Assembly (NCBI RefSeq): GCF_023702715.1 | Contig: NZ_CP098480.1 | Coordinates: 2,232,001-2,296,000, forward strand | Reading direction: 5' to 3' | Source: Acinetobacter sp. C32I | Lineage (GTDB): Bacteria > Pseudomonadota > Gammaproteobacteria > Pseudomonadales > Moraxellaceae | Length of the DNA: 64,000 nucleotides | Part shown: piece after piece, positions 15,780 to 25,227 of the stretch | Numbering within the stretch: position 1 is the first letter of the stretch | How the letters are laid out: each line of letters starts with the position of its first letter | Notes under the pieces: generated by a model | What the model was told of the DNA's origin: nothing | Database searches by the model: none | What the model saw: the letters and a program-made list of their open reading frames with translations, nothing else | Position numbers and translations under genes: made by a program

Positions 15780-16328
15780 ATGAGCTTTTGCGTTGCGTGT
15801 GGACATCAAACTGAAGCAAAAATTCCACTCGGTGATCATAAAACACGACTTGTCTGCACTCATTGTGGCAACATTCACTACGAAAACCCCAAAGTGATTT
15901 GTGGTGCATTGGCCCTATGGGATGACAAGGTGCTGTTATGTCGCCGCGCAATTGAGCCACGCTATGGCCTATGGACTTTACCTGCCGGTTATATGGAGCT
16001 CTTTGAAACCATGGAGCAAGGTGCGGCACGTGAAACCCGAGAAGAAGCCGAGGCCGAAGTAGAAATCGAACAACTGTATTGTATGTACAATATTCCACGT
16101 ATTGGCCAAATCTATGTCCTATTCAAAGCGCATTTAAAACAAGGCTTATTTGGTGCGGGCGAAGAAAGCCTTGAATGTCGTCTATTTGAAGAACATGAAA
16201 TTCCTTGGACAGAACTGGCTTTTCCGAGTGTAGAACAAACACTTCGACATTATTTTGCTGACCGTCAAACGGGACTATTCCCAACCCATTTAGAAACGCT
16301 GGGAACACGGCTCGATCATACAGGTTAA
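15780..16328 (+). CDS. NUDIX hydrolase with N-terminal zinc ribbon
   Basis: The product (182 residues) begins MSFCVACGHQTE. Its Cys pairs (CxxC at residues 4-7 and CTHC further on) form a zinc ribbon, followed by a NUDIX domain with box GYMELFETMEQGAARETREEAEAEV. This is the architecture of NADH-pyrophosphatase-like and ADP-ribose pyrophosphatase-like NUDIX proteins; the substrate cannot be told from the sequence. The open frame extends upstream to 15651, but that part overlaps the divergent NUDIX gene and has no homology-like features, so the ATG at 15780 is preferred. Confidence 0.88.
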   Translation: MSFCVACGHQTEAKIPLGDHKTRLVCTHCGNIHYENPKVICGALALWDDKVLLCRRAIEPRYGLWTLPAGYMELFETMEQGAARETREEAEAEVEIEQLYCMYNIPRIGQIYVLFKAHLKQGLFGAGEESLECRLFEEHEIPWTELAFPSVEQTLRHYFADRQTGLFPTHLETLGTRLDHTG

Positions 16329-16330
16329 AT

Positions 16331-16361
16331 AAAAAAGACCGCAATTGCGGTCTTTTTTATT
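16331..16361. terminator. Bidirectional terminator between the NUDIX gene and filF
   Basis: AAAAAAGACCGCA and TGCGGTCTTTTTT form a strong hairpin with A and T runs on either side. It lies between two convergent genes and can serve both. Confidence 0.9.
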
Positions 16362-16369
16362 GATATATA

Positions 16370-18379
16370 TTAAGATTTCACTTTAATTGCATTACATGCA
16401 GGAATCTTTTGATCTGCGATACGAATACTTGCAGTTCCTTGATAACCTTTTGCAAAAGCACGCTCTTGAGCTGTTGGTTCAACAAACTTGCTTTTATCTG
16501 TTCCTTCTTTATCGTAAGCATTGATATAAGCGGTCAGATATAAAGCTGAATTATTCAACCAAGAAACCGTATTATTTGAGAAGTTGGTTAAGTTAATTCC
16601 TGTAGCTTGACCATTTAATAAGTTATGCACATTGATTTTCGCACCACTAATATTATTCTGGCCATTTAAAGAGGTAAAGTTCAAACCAAGTAATACACCA
16701 TCAATTGTCCCAAATTTTGGATTTGCAAGAATCATACGGACTGTAATCGACTTATCATTCGCTGAATAAAGTGCCCCACCCGTCGTACCCACTCGATATT
16801 GCGTTACACCATATTCATCAATAAATGTACCATCTGCCTGTGACTCTGCTTTAGCACAGCTTCCTGACATATCGTTTGCCGTCGCATCCTTTTTAATATC
16901 AGTACGAATATCTCCATGCTCATCAATCACAATGCCTAAATCGACTGGTGCAATGCTAGTATCCTGAAATTTAAAGGTCAGGGTTGCGTATAGTGGGAAT
17001 GCATAACGCTGCCCAGTTCGAACATTTGCTTCTGTCGTAAAGACATCTTTCGGCAAATAACTGGCTGGGTTGACCTTAAACACATCCGTCACCCCCTTAT
17101 AATTTACGCCAGCAATACTCTGCTGCCATAAACCTAAATCTTTTGCATTATTAAATGGGTCTGTAGATTTAAACTTCATCAACTGGCGATAGACCGCTTC
17201 AGTACTTGCAATATTGGTTCCATTAATCAATTTACCCTGTGTCATTAACACATCTTCGGCAGCGTTATTGTTTAATGTAAAGCGTAATGGCTGGTTTGGG
17301 TTAATCTCTTGATTCACTAAGTTAAACCATTCTTTTTGGGCATTGATTTGAAGTTTGTCTGGTTTTATTGTTCCCAATAATACGATTGGCGGAGATACGA
17401 CACCATTGGTAATAATTGGACTTCCTCGCCACTGCTGACCATTACCGATAATATACCCTTGACGATCCGTCAACAGCTCAAAACGTCCCATTGAATGGAG
17501 GAGATTAGCACTTTTACCATCCAGACAATCCGTATACAGCTCTTTATTACATCCAAAGAGACCATCTGGAAATACGCCACTTCCTTCATTAGGAACTTCA
17601 ACAACCGCGCCATTACTTCCTGCTTTAAAAAGAGGTAATTCGGCATACCAAATCCCAATATTGCTTAGATTCAGTAACTGAGTAACGACAGCAAATGCCT
17701 GATCATCACTGACTTTACTGACATCTAACCATGGTTTGATAATTTCAGCATATGCACCACTCATTAATTCAGTGGCACCTATATCGCGGCTTAAATTCAC
17801 AAGTGTATTTTTCTTCTCAAGCGTAAACTCAATCGGTTGTATGTCGCCAATAATGTTACTACCATCTACTATACTCTGGCTTTGGAAAATTTTAGCCAAA
17901 GCCATCGCCACTCTAATTGTATCATCACTGGCACTTAAGCTAGCTGGCGTTTGTCCAGTCAATCCTATTGCTAGATCAACAATTCGAATACGAGCAGGTA
18001 CCCCACCAACTTTCGTTTTTGTAATTTTATCTAGTGGAATCGTACCTAAGCTAATTTTTCTTGGACTACCTTCACCTTGTAAGTAGAAAGTAACTGTATC
18101 ACCTAACTTACATGCACCAGTGACAATATTGCTATCTAACTTTGTTGCAAAGTGATTGACCTTGTCACTGCTACAATCAAAGTTGATTCCTGCGGCTGGA
18201 TAATCTAAAACAAATTGTAAACAATCCGTTGCTGTCACATCACAACTGGTATTTGAAGTAACACCTGTTACGCCTTTAGTAGGATCTTCATTAATTTTGG
18301 AACTTTCACTACCACAACCATGTAAAAAAATAGCCAATGTTGAAAGTGCAAATGGCAGTAATATTTTTTTGTTCATCAT
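16370..18379 (-). CDS. filF: FilF, large lipoprotein of the fil cluster
   Basis: The 669-residue product has a signal peptide with lipobox LHGC (near residue 22) and then GSESSKINEDPTKGVTGVTSN. The rest has no recognisable enzyme motif; it is Asn/Ser/Thr-rich and probably beta-structured, with several cysteines (CDVTATDCLQF, FDCSSDKVNHF, GACKLGD) that could form disulfides. In Acinetobacter genomes the last gene of this cluster is annotated as putative pilus assembly protein FilF; the name rests on position and size. It is the last gene of the filB-filF unit and ends at a terminator. Confidence 0.72.
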   Translation of the reverse strand: MMNKKILLPFALSTLAIFLHGCGSESSKINEDPTKGVTGVTSNTSCDVTATDCLQFVLDYPAAGINFDCSSDKVNHFATKLDSNIVTGACKLGDTVTFYLQGEGSPRKISLGTIPLDKITKTKVGGVPARIRIVDLAIGLTGQTPASLSASDDTIRVAMALAKIFQSQSIVDGSNIIGDIQPIEFTLEKKNTLVNLSRDIGATELMSGAYAEIIKPWLDVSKVSDDQAFAVVTQLLNLSNIGIWYAELPLFKAGSNGAVVEVPNEGSGVFPDGLFGCNKELYTDCLDGKSANLLHSMGRFELLTDRQGYIIGNGQQWRGSPIITNGVVSPPIVLLGTIKPDKLQINAQKEWFNLVNQEINPNQPLRFTLNNNAAEDVLMTQGKLINGTNIASTEAVYRQLMKFKSTDPFNNAKDLGLWQQSIAGVNYKGVTDVFKVNPASYLPKDVFTTEANVRTGQRYAFPLYATLTFKFQDTSIAPVDLGIVIDEHGDIRTDIKKDATANDMSGSCAKAESQADGTFIDEYGVTQYRVGTTGGALYSANDKSITVRMILANPKFGTIDGVLLGLNFTSLNGQNNISGAKINVHNLLNGQATGINLTNFSNNTVSWLNNSALYLTAYINAYDKEGTDKSKFVEPTAQERAFAKGYQGTASIRIADQKIPACNAIKVKS

Positions 18380-18401
18380 TGGTTCATCCCATCCGTATTA
18401 T

Positions 18402-19652
18402 TTACTGTAAAACAGAAATTTTTATCTGTCCTTGATTCGAGAGTTCTTGCTCAGAAACATCAACTGCAGATGCTAATGGAGTCATCATCACATAACGAAC
18501 ATCTTTAGGTACTTTTATCACACCTTGAATAGCAGAGTGTTGCAACACTGTCGCTGCAGTTTGACTATTTTTAAAGCCACTGACACCCTCAGTAATACAC
18601 CCTTTTTCATCGAGAAAAACAACGAGTGGCCAGTAATACACTGGTTTACTATTATTAGAAGAATATGAATCAATCTGCATATATTGAATTGAGGTATCTA
18701 ACTTCAATAACTCATATTCAAACTTTTCCTTTAATGGTTTTCGGGGCCAAAGTCCAATATCTTTATTCAACTTCAAGGTTTTGATCGACTTCTTATAGTC
18801 CTCTAAAAAGCAGCGGTCATTTTCAAAAGCGGCTTTTAAATCTTCACTCGATAAACGTACATAAGTGCTAGACAATACGATTGGAGCTGTCAATTGCTGT
18901 GAACGATTCAATAGTTTATCTAACATTGAGCGACTCACCCCTTTTTTTCTTTCAATGGTTTCCATACGCCCTGTACCATCAGGCATGGTATAAAAACGTT
19001 TTTTTCCATCTAAATTAAACTCTTGATTTTCCAGATACTCATTATTGACATAATCAACGCCATCAACCTGACTAAACCCAGTGGAAGAGACCACCTCATT
19101 TGAAGAGTTTGAAGCACTTTGAGTTAATGGTACATTTTCTATCCCAGTTAATTTTTTTTCAGCTGCTGGGTGCTCTACCTTCAACTGACTTGTAGACGCT
19201 TGAGTCACTTTTGATTGTTCAACAGGTACGACTGAAAGCTTTTTTACATCCTTGTCTACCACTTTAGAAGGGGGCATCGATTCTATTTTTTGTTGCCCTA
19301 TCGTGGGTTCAACACCTTCGGTAGTTTTCATTGCCTTAGATGAGCTTTTAGTAGATTCAACTGGTTGAGAATATTCAATCTTTTTCTGCTCAACAGGTAC
19401 AGCAACAGCCGTTACTTTCTCGGAATGGTCAATAGCTGGCAAAGTCATTTTTTCAGTATGAGTAACCTGTTTCTGCTTATTTGGCCCAACTTCTTTTTTC
19501 CCAACTCTCATTGGCACAACCATAGGACGACCATCTGGCCCAATGATTGTATAGAAACCATCTGCATAAACAGCCGGAACACTTGATACCATTAAACAAA
19601 ATAATGAAATAGCAAGTGTCGATTGTTGAGTCTTTTTCTTTTGCATTACCAT
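18402..19652 (-). CDS. filE: FilE, secreted protein of the fil cluster
   Basis: The 416-residue product has a signal peptide (LAISLFCLMVSSVPAVYA) followed by DGFYTIIGPDGRPMVVPM. A long low-complexity linker (about residues 45-190) rich in Val, Pro, Lys, Ser and Glu comes next. The C-terminal domain (about 250-416) has two cysteines (DRCFLED and EKGCITEG) and resembles no family I can name. The linker suits a protein spanning the periplasm. The start overlaps the filD stop by 7 bases; a second ATG at 19646 overlaps it as TAATG. Confidence 0.7.
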   Translation of the reverse strand: MVMQKKKTQQSTLAISLFCLMVSSVPAVYADGFYTIIGPDGRPMVVPMRVGKKEVGPNKQKQVTHTEKMTLPAIDHSEKVTAVAVPVEQKKIEYSQPVESTKSSSKAMKTTEGVEPTIGQQKIESMPPSKVVDKDVKKLSVVPVEQSKVTQASTSQLKVEHPAAEKKLTGIENVPLTQSASNSSNEVVSSTGFSQVDGVDYVNNEYLENQEFNLDGKKRFYTMPDGTGRMETIERKKGVSRSMLDKLLNRSQQLTAPIVLSSTYVRLSSEDLKAAFENDRCFLEDYKKSIKTLKLNKDIGLWPRKPLKEKFEYELLKLDTSIQYMQIDSYSSNNSKPVYYWPLVVFLDEKGCITEGVSGFKNSQTAATVLQHSAIQGVIKVPKDVRYVMMTPLASAVDVSEQELSNQGQIKISVLQ

Positions 19653-21313
19653 CTTGTTCTGTAGTTAATCCCAAGTAAAGTTACTTTCGTATTTGTTTTT
19701 ACATTTAGGCCCGCATATGGGTTTAATAACAGGTTGTTTACACCTGTTTGGTTAGAAAGGCTACTTGTATTTGCAGGAATATCATCACGGCTACGTAAGA
19801 AACCAACAGATAAGTCAATATCTGTGTCCTGATCAAAACGATAGCCAAGACCCAAGCCAAACAATTGTGCATTGTTAATTGGCACCATGGTATTTCGTTT
19901 ATCATCTGGAATCGAACTGGTACGAGGCTCATATCCCATCCGCAACTTCAAACGATCTGTTGCGGAATACTCAAAACCAATTCCCCACCGCCAGGAAGAT
20001 TGAAATTTCAACGGTAAAGCAAGTGACCGATCCGTTACATCATTAGATAAAAGTTTAGCCACTTTTAATAATGAAATTTGTCGGTCAAACTCAAATCTAA
20101 ATTTGTCCCATGCCGAGAAATCTGTCCAACCTACATCAAAATTCATTTGTAAATCAGGGAATATTTTATATTTTATTCCTGCTTTAAAATGTTGTGGGTA
20201 CTTAAAATCCATTGCCAATAAACCAGATTCGACTGGTGGTGCATAACCAGGAAAACCTAAAATAGCAGCCAAAATTTGACCTGTTGCAGATGAATTTAAT
20301 CCAGCAATTAATTGTTGTGGTGCATCTGCGACATTAATTAAGTATTTCCCCTTTAACCGCATCTTCGCTTCACTTTGATATACCATTCCGAAACTAAAGT
20401 CGTCGGTCGGCTCCCAAAGTAAACCCAAGTTATAACTAGGGCTGAGCGATTGCTCAAGAGAAACATCTAAAGACCCTACCTTACTAAAAGGATCCATGCC
20501 TTGTTTGGCATTACAAATACCAAAAAGTAAGAGATCTGTAATAATGTCTCCATTCTCTTTAAACGGTCCACATACGACCTCATCGACCATACGTAACACC
20601 CCAATCATCTCGTTGGGGAAACGTAAGTCAGTTTTCATGGCAATCGCTTGATAAGACATTCCAAAAGACGCACCAAGATATAAATTATCATTCACCTGAT
20701 AACCAAACGAAGGTGACAAATAGGTAATACGTTCTAATGCAACCTGCTGTCCCATATAGTTACTTGGATTACCATCTTCTGCACCAAAACCAGCAACAAG
20801 TGGCGCATAAATAGCTGTTGCATATGTTACTTTGGAACCTGGTGGTTTATAAGAAATACCCGCGGTTGGTGCAACTAATGGAGAGTTAGGGCCTAAATCT
20901 ACAATTTTCTTCAAGATAGGAACATAAATACTGGCATATTCGACATCACCACTCACTGTCCCTTTGAAGTCTGTACAGATATTCGCATCAACTTCAGGCC
21001 CATCGTTACACACAATTGGATCATCTGAATAGCCAAAAACGTTGTAACCCGCAGGCGCCGCATAATCACGTTTAATTGCAAAATTGGCTAGAATCCCTTG
21101 CACATCCGTCTGTAAGCCATCTAATTTAGCAAGTGCAGCTGGGTTAAAGTGAACAGCACTAATACCAGGAGGATCCGCAGTAACCGCATTCCCCAATGCC
21201 AAAGAACGTAAATCTACCGATAAGTCTTGTCCGAGTTGTGCATGGGTAGCACTCGATAGCCCAGCAAATAAAATTGCTATCGTTAATGGACATAATTTAA
21301 GGTTTTTCACCAT
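19646..21313 (-). CDS. filD: FilD, FadL/OmpP1-type outer-membrane barrel
   Basis: The 555-residue protein has a signal peptide ending THAQ, then LGQDLSVDLRSLALGNAVTADPPGISAVHFNPAALAKLDG, which matches the N-terminal plug region of the FadL/TodX/OmpP1 family (the NPA motif). Repeated amphipathic strands follow, including WRWGIGFEYSATDRLKLRMGYEPR and FGLGLGYRFDQDTDIDLSVGF. It ends in aromatic TRW, as expected for a Bam substrate. FadL proteins move hydrophobic compounds across the outer membrane; here the gene context suggests a dedicated role in the fil system. Confidence 0.82.
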   Translation of the reverse strand: MVKNLKLCPLTIAILFAGLSSATHAQLGQDLSVDLRSLALGNAVTADPPGISAVHFNPAALAKLDGLQTDVQGILANFAIKRDYAAPAGYNVFGYSDDPIVCNDGPEVDANICTDFKGTVSGDVEYASIYVPILKKIVDLGPNSPLVAPTAGISYKPPGSKVTYATAIYAPLVAGFGAEDGNPSNYMGQQVALERITYLSPSFGYQVNDNLYLGASFGMSYQAIAMKTDLRFPNEMIGVLRMVDEVVCGPFKENGDIITDLLLFGICNAKQGMDPFSKVGSLDVSLEQSLSPSYNLGLLWEPTDDFSFGMVYQSEAKMRLKGKYLINVADAPQQLIAGLNSSATGQILAAILGFPGYAPPVESGLLAMDFKYPQHFKAGIKYKIFPDLQMNFDVGWTDFSAWDKFRFEFDRQISLLKVAKLLSNDVTDRSLALPLKFQSSWRWGIGFEYSATDRLKLRMGYEPRTSSIPDDKRNTMVPINNAQLFGLGLGYRFDQDTDIDLSVGFLRSRDDIPANTSSLSNQTGVNNLLLNPYAGLNVKTNTKVTLLGINYRTRW

Positions 21314-21325
21314 TATTACATCTCC

Positions 21326-22489
21326 TTAACGAATTTTTTTACCAAAACCTATGATATCAAGCGGGAAAGACAGGCCAAGTGAAACATCTGGTGCATCTTC
21401 AGTTAAACCGATTCCCACAGTACCGTTGACAATTGTTTCAGGCGATACACGTACCCCTAAAGCAAATGACAACATGGCGCTACTCTGGTCAGCAGATTTA
21501 TAACTCTCATCATTCTCAAAATAGAATTTTGCGCCCGTATTAAAACTTTGTTGATATGACATGGTCAAAGACACGTCATAATTAAATGAATAAGCAAATC
21601 CAAAAGAAAAACCACCACTCAAACCTGGATCAAAACTTTCCAGTACTCGGCTTCCACGCAATTGATTGAGGCCGGATTCTTTTAAACCATAACTTGTTGA
21701 AACCGAAGCAAACAATACGACAGGATCAATATATTTACGTGTACTCGCTCCAGCACCTACAGAATAATAACCTTTACCAGTAGATAGCTCGTCTACCCCA
21801 ACTTCATAAGGACTATCGCCAGTTTTGGTCGATAAACTACCAAATAAAACTAAAGGCAATCGACCTTGTTTTAAAGGAAATGGTTCCCAACGTGCACCAA
21901 AGTTGATATCACCCAGTCCTGCGGTTGTTTGGTCTTGTAATAAGTCTTTTTTTGCAACAAAAGGCAATGAGGCAGATAAAGTGACGTTATCCAGCAAACC
22001 ATACTGAACTGTAAAGGTATTGGTTAATGTATGGTTGGCATCTTCTTCTACACGTAATCTAGATAATGAACTATTACTATCATTCATTGCCAAATCAAGG
22101 CGACTATCCCGATAATAGGTATAATCCAAATCATAATAAGACGAAAAGATCCCTTTTTTTATGAGTGAGTACTGACGCTCATTTGAAGTAAACACTTCTT
22201 GTAAATTTGTTTCCTGTGTTGCATCACTTTCTTTTTTTTGTAAAGCGCTTGCAGCCTGATCTGCCTGACTCCCCTCCGCAACAGGAGCAGCCTCCACTAC
22301 AGGTTTAATAGCACTTTCAACCGCCGTATTGGTTTGTCCTTCAGCTACCACCGCAGTCTGATCTGTTTCAGATGCTACAGTCTCCGTTACGGGTTGTTGA
22401 TCTGCTGCGTAAAGTGTTGATGTGATTGCACCTAAACTTAAGGCCAACACACTCATATTCATCCATGTACGATTCATTTTACTTTGCAT
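21326..22489 (-). CDS. filC: FilC, outer-membrane beta-barrel with low-complexity N-terminal segment
   Basis: The 387-residue protein has a signal peptide ending LYAAD, then an Ala/Val/Gln/Glu-rich segment (about residues 30-90) that could be disordered or helical. A beta-barrel of about 280 residues follows. It contains YYDLDYTYYRDSRLDL, SLSRLRVEEDANHTLTNTFTVQYGLLDNVTLSASLPFV, GLGDINFGARWEPF and TGKGYYSVGAGASTRKYIDPVV. This layout and these strand motifs recall FapF, the amyloid exporter of Pseudomonas; that is inference from memory of the family. An ATG at 22477 is another possible start. Confidence 0.75.
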   Translation of the reverse strand: MQSKMNRTWMNMSVLALSLGAITSTLYAADQQPVTETVASETDQTAVVAEGQTNTAVESAIKPVVEAAPVAEGSQADQAASALQKKESDATQETNLQEVFTSNERQYSLIKKGIFSSYYDLDYTYYRDSRLDLAMNDSNSSLSRLRVEEDANHTLTNTFTVQYGLLDNVTLSASLPFVAKKDLLQDQTTAGLGDINFGARWEPFPLKQGRLPLVLFGSLSTKTGDSPYEVGVDELSTGKGYYSVGAGASTRKYIDPVVLFASVSTSYGLKESGLNQLRGSRVLESFDPGLSGGFSFGFAYSFNYDVSLTMSYQQSFNTGAKFYFENDESYKSADQSSAMLSFALGVRVSPETIVNGTVGIGLTEDAPDVSLGLSFPLDIIGFGKKIR

Positions 22490-22523
22490 CCTATTACATT
22501 AATTTTACTGTTTTTTTCTAAAC

Positions 22524-23357
22524 TTACTTCCGCTTGTAATATAAGCGCATATAGGTCGTAATCGGTTGGTTATAAGTTGCTGAATTAGGATCTGCATCCA
22601 ATACCCGACGCATGGTTGATGCTTTGTCTGCAAGACGTTCAAATTTTTGCGTTGGAAACTGAATTTCAGCAAGGGCATACCGATTTACTGTTGCATCCTC
22701 TACATGACGCATATCTGCATCTTGTAATGCCAATAAACTCTTTTGGTATTGTTGAGGAATATCAACAATAAATAATGTATTGTTGTCCCATATTTCTTTA
22801 AACCTAGATTCATCAAAGCTAATATTACCGAGTGCAGGATCAGCAACATAAACTCTTCCATCTTTATACGCTTTATATACGACAAAATGTTTAAAGCCAG
22901 CATAAGTAATAGGAACAATCGCTGGTTGTTTTAACGCAATAAGATCCGAAAATTCCCCACGATAGCCTCCACTATTAATCCCTAAAGCGGAGACAAAACG
23001 TTTCATATCCAACAAAGAGAAACTTCGACGCTCGATAATGCGCTGATACTCCCCATACTGAAGTAAGCCACTCATGGTCTGCTGTTCGGTAAGGCGTAAA
23101 CCACCATAACCATTCAGTAGGGTCGTTAAAGCAGCAGAACCACAGCTATAGTCATAAGCTTGGCGTACAATCCCACGAAACTGCTCCTCTACAGCAGGTT
23201 TAATCACAACTGCTTCGCGATGATTCCGTGTAAATGAAGGGTTACGAGAGTCCAAAGTTTCTGTATAGAATACAGTCCCTTCTGGTTTTTTTTCTATTTC
23301 AAAGGCTTGCGTTGTAAAGTAATACATCAATGCCGAGCCTAAAGCGATCTCTAACAT
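22524..23357 (-). CDS. filB: FilB, membrane-anchored C39-family cysteine peptidase
   Basis: The 277-residue protein has one N-terminal hydrophobic segment (about residues 1-18), then a C39 peptidase domain. The catalytic triad is visible: Cys72 in YDYSCGSAALTTLL, His156 in GFKHFVVYKA and Asp172 in VADPALGN. No ATP-binding cassette or transporter is fused to it, unlike bacteriocin exporters. The predicted location is the periplasm, tethered to the inner membrane. A stand-alone C39-like peptidase is also encoded in fap operons (FapD). It is the first gene of filB-filF; AAAGAGA precedes the ATG. Confidence 0.82.
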   Translation of the reverse strand: MLEIALGSALMYYFTTQAFEIEKKPEGTVFYTETLDSRNPSFTRNHREAVVIKPAVEEQFRGIVRQAYDYSCGSAALTTLLNGYGGLRLTEQQTMSGLLQYGEYQRIIERRSFSLLDMKRFVSALGINSGGYRGEFSDLIALKQPAIVPITYAGFKHFVVYKAYKDGRVYVADPALGNISFDESRFKEIWDNNTLFIVDIPQQYQKSLLALQDADMRHVEDATVNRYALAEIQFPTQKFERLADKASTMRRVLDADPNSATYNQPITTYMRLYYKRK

Positions 23358-23728
23358 AAGTCTCTTTTTCTAACAATGGCAGCACTTGCCTTATTCATTT
23401 TATTTTTAGTGTCTATGACACTACATCCCTGCAAGATGAAGATACCTGCTTTTATAAGAAAATACATCTTTTTTTTAGTTTTTTTTGACGGAATGTTATT
23501 TTTTTTATAATTACCTCTACAATTAAACAATTAGCCACCTTAAAAAAACAATTCAGCAACAAGAAATTGCTGCTAAAAACGCCTTTTTATTCCTTATAAA
23601 TTACCATAGTGGGTCAAAAATAAATAAACGATAGGCATAAAATAACATCAAGTTAAACCCTCAAAAGCGAAAGGCACCCTATGATTCACACTTGCTACTC
23701 GTCAGAGAATAAGTTTTCCTTTAAAAAC
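23358..23728. other. Gap between filA terminator and filB
   Basis: This stretch holds no convincing gene. It is very AT-rich, with T runs at 23467-23484 and 23503-23510. It should contain the promoter for filB-filF on the minus strand, but I could not pick a clear -35/-10 pair. Confidence 0.5.
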
Positions 23729-23757
23729 AAAAAAAAGCGCAAAATGCGCTTTTTTTT
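23729..23757 (-). terminator. Terminator directly after filA
   Basis: A strong hairpin, AGCGCA and TGCGCT (23736-23741 and 23745-23750), is flanked by runs of A and T. It lies 14 bases past the filA stop and would stop most transcripts before filB, so filA can be made in excess over the assembly genes. Confidence 0.88.
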
Positions 23758-23770
23758 GTTTGATAACTGA

Positions 23771-24718
23771 TTAGTGACCAGAAATCGTGATCGCTGCACC
23801 ATTACCGCCAGCATAAGTGGTTTTCAAACCTTGAATTTCTACATCACCAATTGAACCAGCAGTAGCACTACCTAAACGAACACCTTTAATGTAGATATCT
23901 GAACCATTAGTTGGAGATTGGCTTACAATTCTTAAGAATCCATCATTAGCACCAGCAGTACTTTCACCAACAACACTAACATTCGCCTTAACAGTCATGT
24001 CAGTACCACCATTATCAGCAACTTTAATGCTGTCTAAATGGATTTCACCAGCTAATGTACTTGCAACACCAGTTGAAGTTGTTTGACCAATTGTTGATTT
24101 ATCTTTAATGCCTAGATTGGTAATTTCCAAACCACCAGTCATTGTTGTATTCAACATGATCATTGCACCTTGAGGAGCAGCACCTAATTGAATATTTGCA
24201 TCCATTGTACCAGTTTTTAAAGTTAAACCAGATAAGATCTCATTTGCTGTACCAGTCGTACCACGTTGGATACTAGTTGTACCTTGTGTTCCAGAAGCAG
24301 CTACTTCAATTTTACCCAAGCTAATATTCAAGCCAGATACTTTTGCTGCAACATTAAGGAACGCACCACCTGTTGCTGTAGTACCAGCATCAGTATCAAT
24401 TGCTAAATCAGCTAAGTTATGAGAAGGCAATAATGCAGACATATTTGGTGTAATTGCAACGTTGTTTACAACGATTGCACCAGCAACACCTGTACCACCA
24501 GAACCGATTGTACCAGCCGCAGCACCATTGTCAGCATAACCATCGTTATCATGAATTAATAATTTGTCGATCGTAACAGAAGTAACACCAAGACCAATGT
24601 TAATACCGTCTTGACCTGTTGCAGCGCTTAGTGCAGCATCGTCCATTGACTGCATAGCCATTGCATTTACGCTAATCGCCATTGAAGAAACTAAAGCTAG
24701 TTTAGTAAACATTTTCAT
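23771..24718 (-). CDS. filA: FilA, secreted putative filament subunit
   Basis: The 315-residue protein has a signal peptide ending NAMAM, followed by the signature QSMDDAALSAATGQDGINI, which recurs in putative pilus-assembly proteins of this type in gammaproteobacteria. The rest is rich in Gly, Ala, Thr and Asn, lacks Cys, and alternates short beta-like strands (VTIDKLLIHDNDG, AIVVNNVAITPN, GLEITNLGIKD, LAGEIHLDSIKVADN), as expected for a repetitive fibre or beta-helix. The start at 24718 has GGGAGAG upstream; a longer frame from 24739 has none. It is separated from filB by a strong terminator. Confidence 0.78.
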   Translation of the reverse strand: MKMFTKLALVSSMAISVNAMAMQSMDDAALSAATGQDGINIGLGVTSVTIDKLLIHDNDGYADNGAAAGTIGSGGTGVAGAIVVNNVAITPNMSALLPSHNLADLAIDTDAGTTATGGAFLNVAAKVSGLNISLGKIEVAASGTQGTTSIQRGTTGTANEILSGLTLKTGTMDANIQLGAAPQGAMIMLNTTMTGGLEITNLGIKDKSTIGQTTSTGVASTLAGEIHLDSIKVADNGGTDMTVKANVSVVGESTAGANDGFLRIVSQSPTNGSDIYIKGVRLGSATAGSIGDVEIQGLKTTYAGGNGAAITISGH

Positions 24719-25227
24719 TGAGCACTCTCCCAAGAGCATTTATTTTTTGACTTACACTACTCTAAACTGTCCACGGTCGTTTTATTCTTAAATGACAACT
24801 TGAACTTCCAATCCTTGAGTAGTTCGCTTAGCAATTACTAAATTACCTGTTTGTTATTTTATGTTCAACTCCTGTTAACTGCTTTTTATCCACAAACCGA
24901 CAAACGGCATAAAGAACACACAATTTTCTAAGCAGCGAAAAATTATGACAACAGCATGTAATTCTTGATTATTTTTATAAAATAATTTTTAAATCCAAAA
25001 TAACAAAGTTTGGCGATGCTCCGTTTATCCAGGGCTAAATACGTATAAGAAGTGTTAACAAAAGCGCTTTCTTATTTTAATTTGATAAATACATCATTCA
25101 TTTTACCTAAGCAATCAACTCCTACAACTCTGAATTTTTAAGCAAAAAACTGGATTATCATCCATGTGATGTTTTTGAATGTAGTACAATTCTGCTCTCT
25201 AAATTTAGTGCAAGTATTTCCATTTTT
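24719..25227. other. Divergent promoter region of filA and pabB
   Basis: No gene is visible. The region is AT-rich and should hold the filA promoter (minus strand) and the pabB promoter (plus strand). A single perfect DnaA box, TTATCCACA, occurs at 24886-24894. I could not place sigma-70 or sigma-54 promoter elements with confidence. Confidence 0.5.

Follow-up and report, generated by a model that had tools for sequence, protein, structure and literature searches.

The window analyzed here is a 64,000-nucleotide stretch of the Acinetobacter sp. C32I genome, and the subject of this study is its fil gene cluster, which consists of six intact open reading frames (ORFs), filA to filF, all on the minus strand. 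An earlier note, made from the sequence alone, had proposed a six-gene export system for a fiber or amyloid-like product at this place, and the six genes proved to be real and to lie where it had put them. All six proteins are covered by NCBIfam ‘exception’ models (‘putative pilus system’ or ‘pilus assembly’). The genes, the parts of FilA and a terminator between filA and filB are given below in window coordinates.

16370-18379, minus strand: filF, 669 amino acids (aa)
18402-19652, minus strand: filE, 416 aa
19646-21313, minus strand: filD, 555 aa
21326-22489, minus strand: filC, 387 aa
22524-23357, minus strand: filB, 277 aa
about 23723-23762, minus strand: intrinsic terminator in the filA-filB gap, fold -20.0 kcal/mol
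23771-24718, minus strand: filA, 315 aa counted from the start at 24718
23771-24610, minus strand: FilA mature fiber subunit, residues 37-315 plus stop (NF050077, 2.7e-97)
24611-24655, minus strand: putative FilA post-Sec leader (‘GQ tag’), residues 22-36, MQSMDDAALSAATGQ, directly behind the signal peptide
24656-24718, minus strand: FilA signal peptide, residues 1-21, predicted by eye to be cut after AMA

The filA start at 24718 is preceded by GGGAGAG, and the ORF listing has an earlier ATG at 24739. FilA is a secreted protein without Cys, the mature part of which is rich in Gly (16%), Ala (12%) and Thr (12.5%), as the earlier note had described it. In an alignment of 44 homologs, A21 at the end of the predicted signal peptide is invariant; the leader region behind it has T34, Q36 and G38 in every sequence and D27, L30, G35 and D37 in at least 90%. 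We propose that MQSMDDAALSAATGQ is a candidate recognition tag for FilB, with a putative cut site after Q36. The structural model of FilA is all-beta, with a mean predicted local distance difference test (pLDDT) score of 78.7; residues 27-34 (positions -10 to -3 of the proposed cut) are modeled as a helix and the first strand begins at residue 37, in a stretch of low confidence. Comparison of the model to the PDB with Foldseek gave no matches at E ≤ 0.001 and no enzyme fold was found, so the soluble enzyme fold that the earlier note had named as an argument against its proposal did not appear. The ‘amyloid-like’ part of that proposal fared less well. Internal repeats scored 52 vs 48.6 (standard deviation 8.3) for shuffled sequences, none above the shuffles, and Asn plus Gln are low, at about 9% of the protein; as FilA is without amyloid-like repeats, amyloid and a fiber of folded beta subunits are equally likely. 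At the other end of the protein we observed a terminal Gly-His (window 23774-23779), with G314 invariant and H315 conserved in at least 90% of the 44 aligned homologs.

The tag follows the pattern L/M(-15)xxM/L(-12)xDxxL(-7)xxVTG(-2)Q(-1). A table of its residues, built on 171 unique tagged proteins that came from 111 loci, has L or M at -15 (169), M, L or I at -12, D at -10 (140), L or M at -7, T at -3 (120) and G at -2; the search pattern had fixed parts of -12, -7, -2 and -1 and permitted only Q or E at -1, a constraint of which the 44-sequence FilA alignment was free. Allowing Ala at -1 recovered a few GA variants in other genomes. The consensus for leaders of C39 peptidases is L(-12)xxxE(-8)L(-7)xxxxG(-2)G(-1), with residues -10 to -4 helical on the peptidase (PMC6959990; this and the other PMC articles are cited here from partial text). 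The Fil tag has the hydrophobic residues at -12 and -7 and the Gly at -2 of a double-glycine leader, and lacks the Gly (or Ala) at -1, where Q36 is invariant in the 44 FilA sequences. What the Fil tag shares with the C39 consensus is its register.

FilB is a stand-alone C39 peptidase (PF03412, 4.9e-17; NF050078, 1.9e-161) with a hydrophobic segment at its N-terminus and a C72/H157/D173 triad preceded by Q66, and the aligned Q, C, H and D are invariant in a five-sequence alignment from distant hosts. A FilB profile matched the solved C39 domains of C39 peptidase-containing ATP-binding cassette (ABC) transporters at about 1e-7. FilC is a FapF-related outer-membrane barrel of the Phenol_MetA_deg family (NF050079, 2.5e-201), and we propose that it serves as a protein channel. 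FilD belongs to the FadL/Toluene_X (FadL/OmpP1-type) barrels (PF03349, 3e-62). FilE has a long linker followed by a FilE_C domain (PF22881, 2.5e-68) and is a putative periplasmic accessory protein; at a Marinobacter locus (L168) the gene behind filD, in the place of filE, has DUF4124 and MalM domains, which would fit a FilE-like role. FilF is a Cys-rich lipoprotein with a lipobox-like LHGC and 9 Cys in total, its model shows two beta-barrel-like domains, and we propose it as a surface accessory or anchor. The tethered peptidase with an intact triad, the two barrels, the long linker and the cysteine-bearing lipoprotein of the earlier note were thus all recovered.

We compared the Fil proteins to the Fap functional amyloid system of Pseudomonas. 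FilB matched the FapD model at 8.9e-32 (110.2 bits, vs an NCBIfam cut-off of 330) and FilC matched the FapF model at 7.5e-17 (61.2 bits, vs a cut-off of 700), so that neither is an equivalog; this homology argues for the dedicated secretion line across both membranes suggested earlier. The solved FapF chains are the nearest solved relatives of FilC by sequence, at about 9e-11; this comparison to FapF, which is a trimeric channel with a periplasmic coiled coil, was one of sequences. Fil-type FilB formed its own clade in a tree of 80 C39 sequences (32 rows, support 100/99), as did Fil-type FilC in a tree of 69 barrel sequences (30 rows, support 100/100). The scores below the equivalog cut-offs, together with these separate clades, suggest that fil is a sister line of Fap, a distant cousin and not Fap itself. 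The FapB, FapC and FapE models were not listed for any of the six Fil proteins at E ≤ 0.1, and FilA lacks the imperfect repeats of FapB/FapC subunits.

To score the tag across genomes we used DUF6160 (PF19657), which spans the signal peptide and the Fil tag. Among 149 Moraxellaceae genomes, DUF6160 occurred in 58 of the 59 with a Fil-type filB vs 4 of the 90 without; 11 further Moraxellaceae genomes matched by the FilB model have distant, ‘minimal’ C39 peptidases and were counted as lacking a Fil-type filB. The four filB-negative genomes with DUF6160 (G037, G038, G041 and G072) are drafts of 220-450 contigs, and the sole filB-positive genome without it (G053) is 82% complete and has a stop inside the filB match. 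Within the genus, filB was found in 30 of 41 genomes, and all 11 listed without filB were also listed without DUF6160. A class-wide draw of 274 genomes yielded DUF6160 (E ≤ 0.001; five of the six genomes over the Pfam cut-off) in 6/6 genomes with FilB above 200 bits and in 0/268 others, the 200-bit threshold having been chosen after a gap was seen (lowest 211.6, next genome 130.5); 38 other genomes of the draw had a match to the FilB model, none with DUF6160. A 40-residue tag profile gave the identical 6 of 274 genomes, and since its rows include some genomes of the draw, the negatives are the informative part. The same profile matched in all 14 genomes chosen among the FilB loci (E ≤ 0.05; weakest 0.0017), including 8/8 that had been picked for a filB locus without a local tag and that carry tag matches elsewhere. 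The tag was also readable at 28 of the 30 loci retrieved (L248-L277).

FilB relatives in GTDB contigs numbered at least 572, from which 80 loci were kept for analysis. The kept loci came from Marinobacter, Thalassolituus, Hahella, Alcanivorax, Pseudomonas, Ideonella, a Desulfonema metagenome-assembled genome and others, and four named Acinetobacter loci among them carry the fil cluster. The co-occurrence check called for by the earlier note revealed a conserved B-C-D core, with filB, filC and filD together in 78 of the 80 loci.

The tag is not confined to FilA. The C32I genome encodes nine tagged secreted proteins, FilA and eight at a second locus outside the window, about 110-135 kb away (L028 3133-9748; L278 504-13982) of 342, 862, 258, 724, 513, 497, 499 and 487 aa, and the mature parts of the nine fall into 5 clusters. 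Another genome has 20 tag-profile matches, and together these counts contradict the single abundant product of the earlier note. The mature regions of 22 tagged proteins from two other genomes formed 17 clusters and those of all 171 tagged proteins formed 30, the largest of which (107) is presumably the FilA family. In other genomes secreted proteins both small and large bear the same tag stretch, and tagged proteins are often encoded far from filB. DUF6160 matches cover mainly the first 40-45 positions in distant genomes and often 60-95 in Moraxellaceae. With the tagged proteins split into so many mature clusters, DUF6160 is a leader common to more proteins than any one mature domain. The second tagged locus also includes a Trp_halogenase-family gene, with a two-partner-secretion-like pair seen by eye beyond it.

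We looked for a corresponding motif beside fapD. A FapE-like motif, L/V(-12)xxx[E](-8)[LM](-7)xx[LM](-4)RG(-2)[KRG](-1), e.g. LSDEELGGLRGRY, was found near fapD in a same-strand, non-barrel gene at 18 of 28 FapD-type loci and on the opposite strand at 1 of 28; one additional same-strand match was excluded as a barrel gene (19 → 18 loci). We scanned 13 of the 18 carriers: 10 matched the FapE model, a single one of them over the cut-off, and the other three (158-183 aa) gave no FapE-model match. FapE of P. nicosulfuronedens and P. citronellolis, both above the cut-off, have LKDQELAQLRGK and LKDAEMAQLRGR, respectively, just behind the signal peptide. Of 55 FapD-neighbor candidates, 24% scored 17 or more on the published leader consensus; shuffled sequences did so in 1.7% of cases and 167 far ORFs in 4.8%. 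FapE is a proposed target of FapD. Short stand-alone C39 peptidases, mostly with a barrel gene, were also observed in other Moraxellaceae genera (L038-L043, L162-L166) and at a more distant locus (L156), many of which have as neighbors small secreted proteins whose M-T-D-x-E/Q-M-x-E-T-E-G-A-like motifs share that leader register. One genome (G193) has seven stand-alone C39 matches, and at all 6 of its loci that were retrieved (L148-L153) a peptidase has a secreted neighbor in which an L-S-E-E-E-M-like leader precedes a variable cargo.

The intrinsic terminator between filA and filB was absent from the output of a consensus terminator scan, and a comparable hairpin was present in 27 of the 38 Moraxellaceae filA-filB gaps measured (39 loci were tried, one of which had no recognized FilA). 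Since the terminator parts filA from filB-filF, filA is probably made in excess. A 38-codon ORF with a lipobox (window 23351-23467) lies just upstream of the filB start and overlaps it; it was found in 0/38 of the related Moraxellaceae gaps. Beyond the other end of the cluster, a symmetric terminator at window 16328-16361 separates the convergent filF and a gene that, judged by eye, resembles a NUDIX hydrolase.

We consider it likely that fil is a Fap-like secretion line in which a post-Sec leader, the tag, is cut by FilB and the product is exported through FilC/FilD. FilA and the other tagged proteins would be exported from the cytoplasm by Sec and freed of the signal peptide, exposing a 15-residue N-terminal tag (L/M..M/L.D..L..VTGQ) that may dock on the tethered, periplasmic FilB as bacteriocin leaders do on C39 domains and may be cut after Gly-Gln. 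Homology and conserved gene order suggest that the freed chain would cross the outer membrane through the FapF-type FilC, with FilD, FilE and FilF as partners. FilA, presumably in excess, would polymerize into the Fil fimbria, the fiber itself having been reported in Acinetobacter sp. Tol 5. Judging from the co-occurrence, tagged proteins encoded elsewhere might share this line with FilA, or share the protease at least, and FapD probably acts likewise on FapE by way of the register-matched N-terminal motif. We lean only slightly towards a wider reading, a general post-Sec sorting in Pseudomonadota in which periplasmic C39 convertases (FilB, FapD and the ‘minimal’ clade) would strip portable, double-glycine-leader-like tags from many unrelated, scattered proteins once the signal peptide is gone and pass the cargo to a partner barrel in the outer membrane. 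The code at -1 would then be clade-specific: Gln in Fil, mostly Lys/Arg/Gly in FapE, and Ala/Glu/Asp/Lys/Arg in the minimal clade.

Several observations weigh against cleavage by FilB and its extension to FapD. Position -1 of the tag is Gln (162/171) or Glu (9/171), not Gly as in classical C39 substrates, and a score on the published consensus, E(-8) and S(-11) included, showed no clear enrichment among the neighbors of Fil-type filB, nor did a relaxed cut. Much of the tag conservation sits within one family, given that 107 of the 171 tagged proteins fall in one mature-region cluster, and the co-occurrence counts are not phylogenetically independent. A tagged gene is missing beside filB at 35 of the 80 kept loci, so the refuting case of the earlier note, relatives lacking filA in the cluster, is borne out in part, but the eight of these genomes that were searched all have tag matches elsewhere. 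The FapE motif is missing at 10 of 28 FapD-type loci and was defined after inspection of these same loci, and processing of FapE seemed to extend to about residue 70, beyond the motif (PMC5557850).

The best surviving alternative, which we regard as unlikely, is that the tag serves solely for docking or retention, bound by FilB (or FilC/FilD) but not cut, and that proteolysis by FilB serves another target. The Gln at -1, unusual for C39, would suit such a role, and non-cleaving C39-like chaperone domains, catalytically dead in some type 1 systems, have been described (PMC5557850, PMC6173800), but the triad and Gln are invariant in the five FilB aligned from distant hosts, FapD needs its catalytic Cys (PMC5557850), and all 44 FilA homologs have Q36 and at least 90% of them G35. 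We find it improbable that the tagged proteins, FilA among them, remain periplasmic or in the outer membrane, with FilC/FilD as import or lipid channels in a cluster for the uptake of hydrophobic substrates. The FadL type of FilD and the Phenol_MetA_deg family of FilC are in keeping with uptake, and so are the hosts Marinobacter, Alcanivorax and Thalassolituus, which are oil degraders. The Fil fibers of Tol 5 also appear on triacylglycerol, but FilA is reported as a component of a surface fimbria (PMC3498257) and the nearest solved relative of FilC is a protein channel. It is very improbable that Fil is just another pilus of an established assembly class, despite the database names and the terms third type of pilus and type III pilus (PMC3203104, PMC8792954), in view of the Fap-related FilB and FilC and of the domain content of the cluster. 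At E ≤ 0.1 Pfam assigned to none of the six proteins a chaperone, usher, pilin or ABC-transporter domain, as the earlier note had stated, nor a sortase domain; the periplasmic chaperone and usher of chaperone-usher pili are thus both missing among them.

Given that FilD is of the FadL type and that some of the hosts degrade oil, we infer that Fil might be a surface fiber for hydrophobic or lipid interfaces. The primary paper on Tol 5 FilA, with the Edman data, is reportedly Hori 2011. The fiber foreseen in the earlier note had already been reported, with FilA as the subunit of the Fil fimbriae of Tol 5, its band identified by Edman degradation; cells on triacylglycerol were covered by long, curved FilA fibers, which were sparse on other substrates (PMC3498257). 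FilF was raised in the A. baumannii pellicle (PMC3203104), and strain SDF, as a solid-liquid biofilm, had FilC up 71-fold and FilF up 12-fold (PMC8792954). For Fap, the active-site Cys of FapD is required for secretion, and FapE yielded no N-terminal peptides and is apparently processed at its N-terminus; Rouse et al. found no canonical C39 sites in Fap proteins and left the target of FapD unclear (PMC5557850). The target and its recognition sequence were open in the 2017/2018 papers (PMC5557850, PMC6173800), and among the titles listed from 2019 onward none points to a solved target. In the portions of the open-licence PMC literature consulted, we found no description of the mechanism of the Fil line and no link between FilB and FapD, DUF6160 and a protease, or FapE and this motif.

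Together with its FapE counterpart, the Fil tag offers an exact, testable cut site and suggests where FapD may cut. If the proposal is true, a leader class of small cytoplasmic bacteriocin precursors would also act in the periplasm as a code by which large surface proteins are sorted, and DUF6160 would gain a function. Undescribed surface or secreted proteins would be predicted in Acinetobacter, Marinobacter, Pseudomonas and others, and the export of a biofilm- and pellicle-associated fiber would be explained.

Among known systems, Fil most invites comparison with Fap of Pseudomonas (FapA-F), with which it shares Sec-secreted subunits, adjacent genes, a periplasmic C39 peptidase (FapD, FilB), a FapF-type outer-membrane channel (FapF, putatively FilC) and, in FapE, a motif that matches the FilA tag in register. 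It differs from Fap in the additional FilD, FilE and FilF, in the absence of FapB/C-like repeats and of FapE, in the Gln at -1 of the tag, and in the many tagged proteins encoded outside the locus. Fil resembles double-glycine leaders and PCAT1/LahT in the register of the hydrophobic residues and Gly(-2), the helical -10 to -4 region and the C39 triad, whereas the Fil cut would be periplasmic, after Sec export, and made by a stand-alone peptidase, on a tag with Gln/Glu at -1 and a large cargo. The Tol 5 Fil fimbriae have the same FilA by name, but the assembly mechanism, the tag, the relationship to Fap and the further tagged cargo proposed here are unmentioned in the available portion of that report (PMC3498257).

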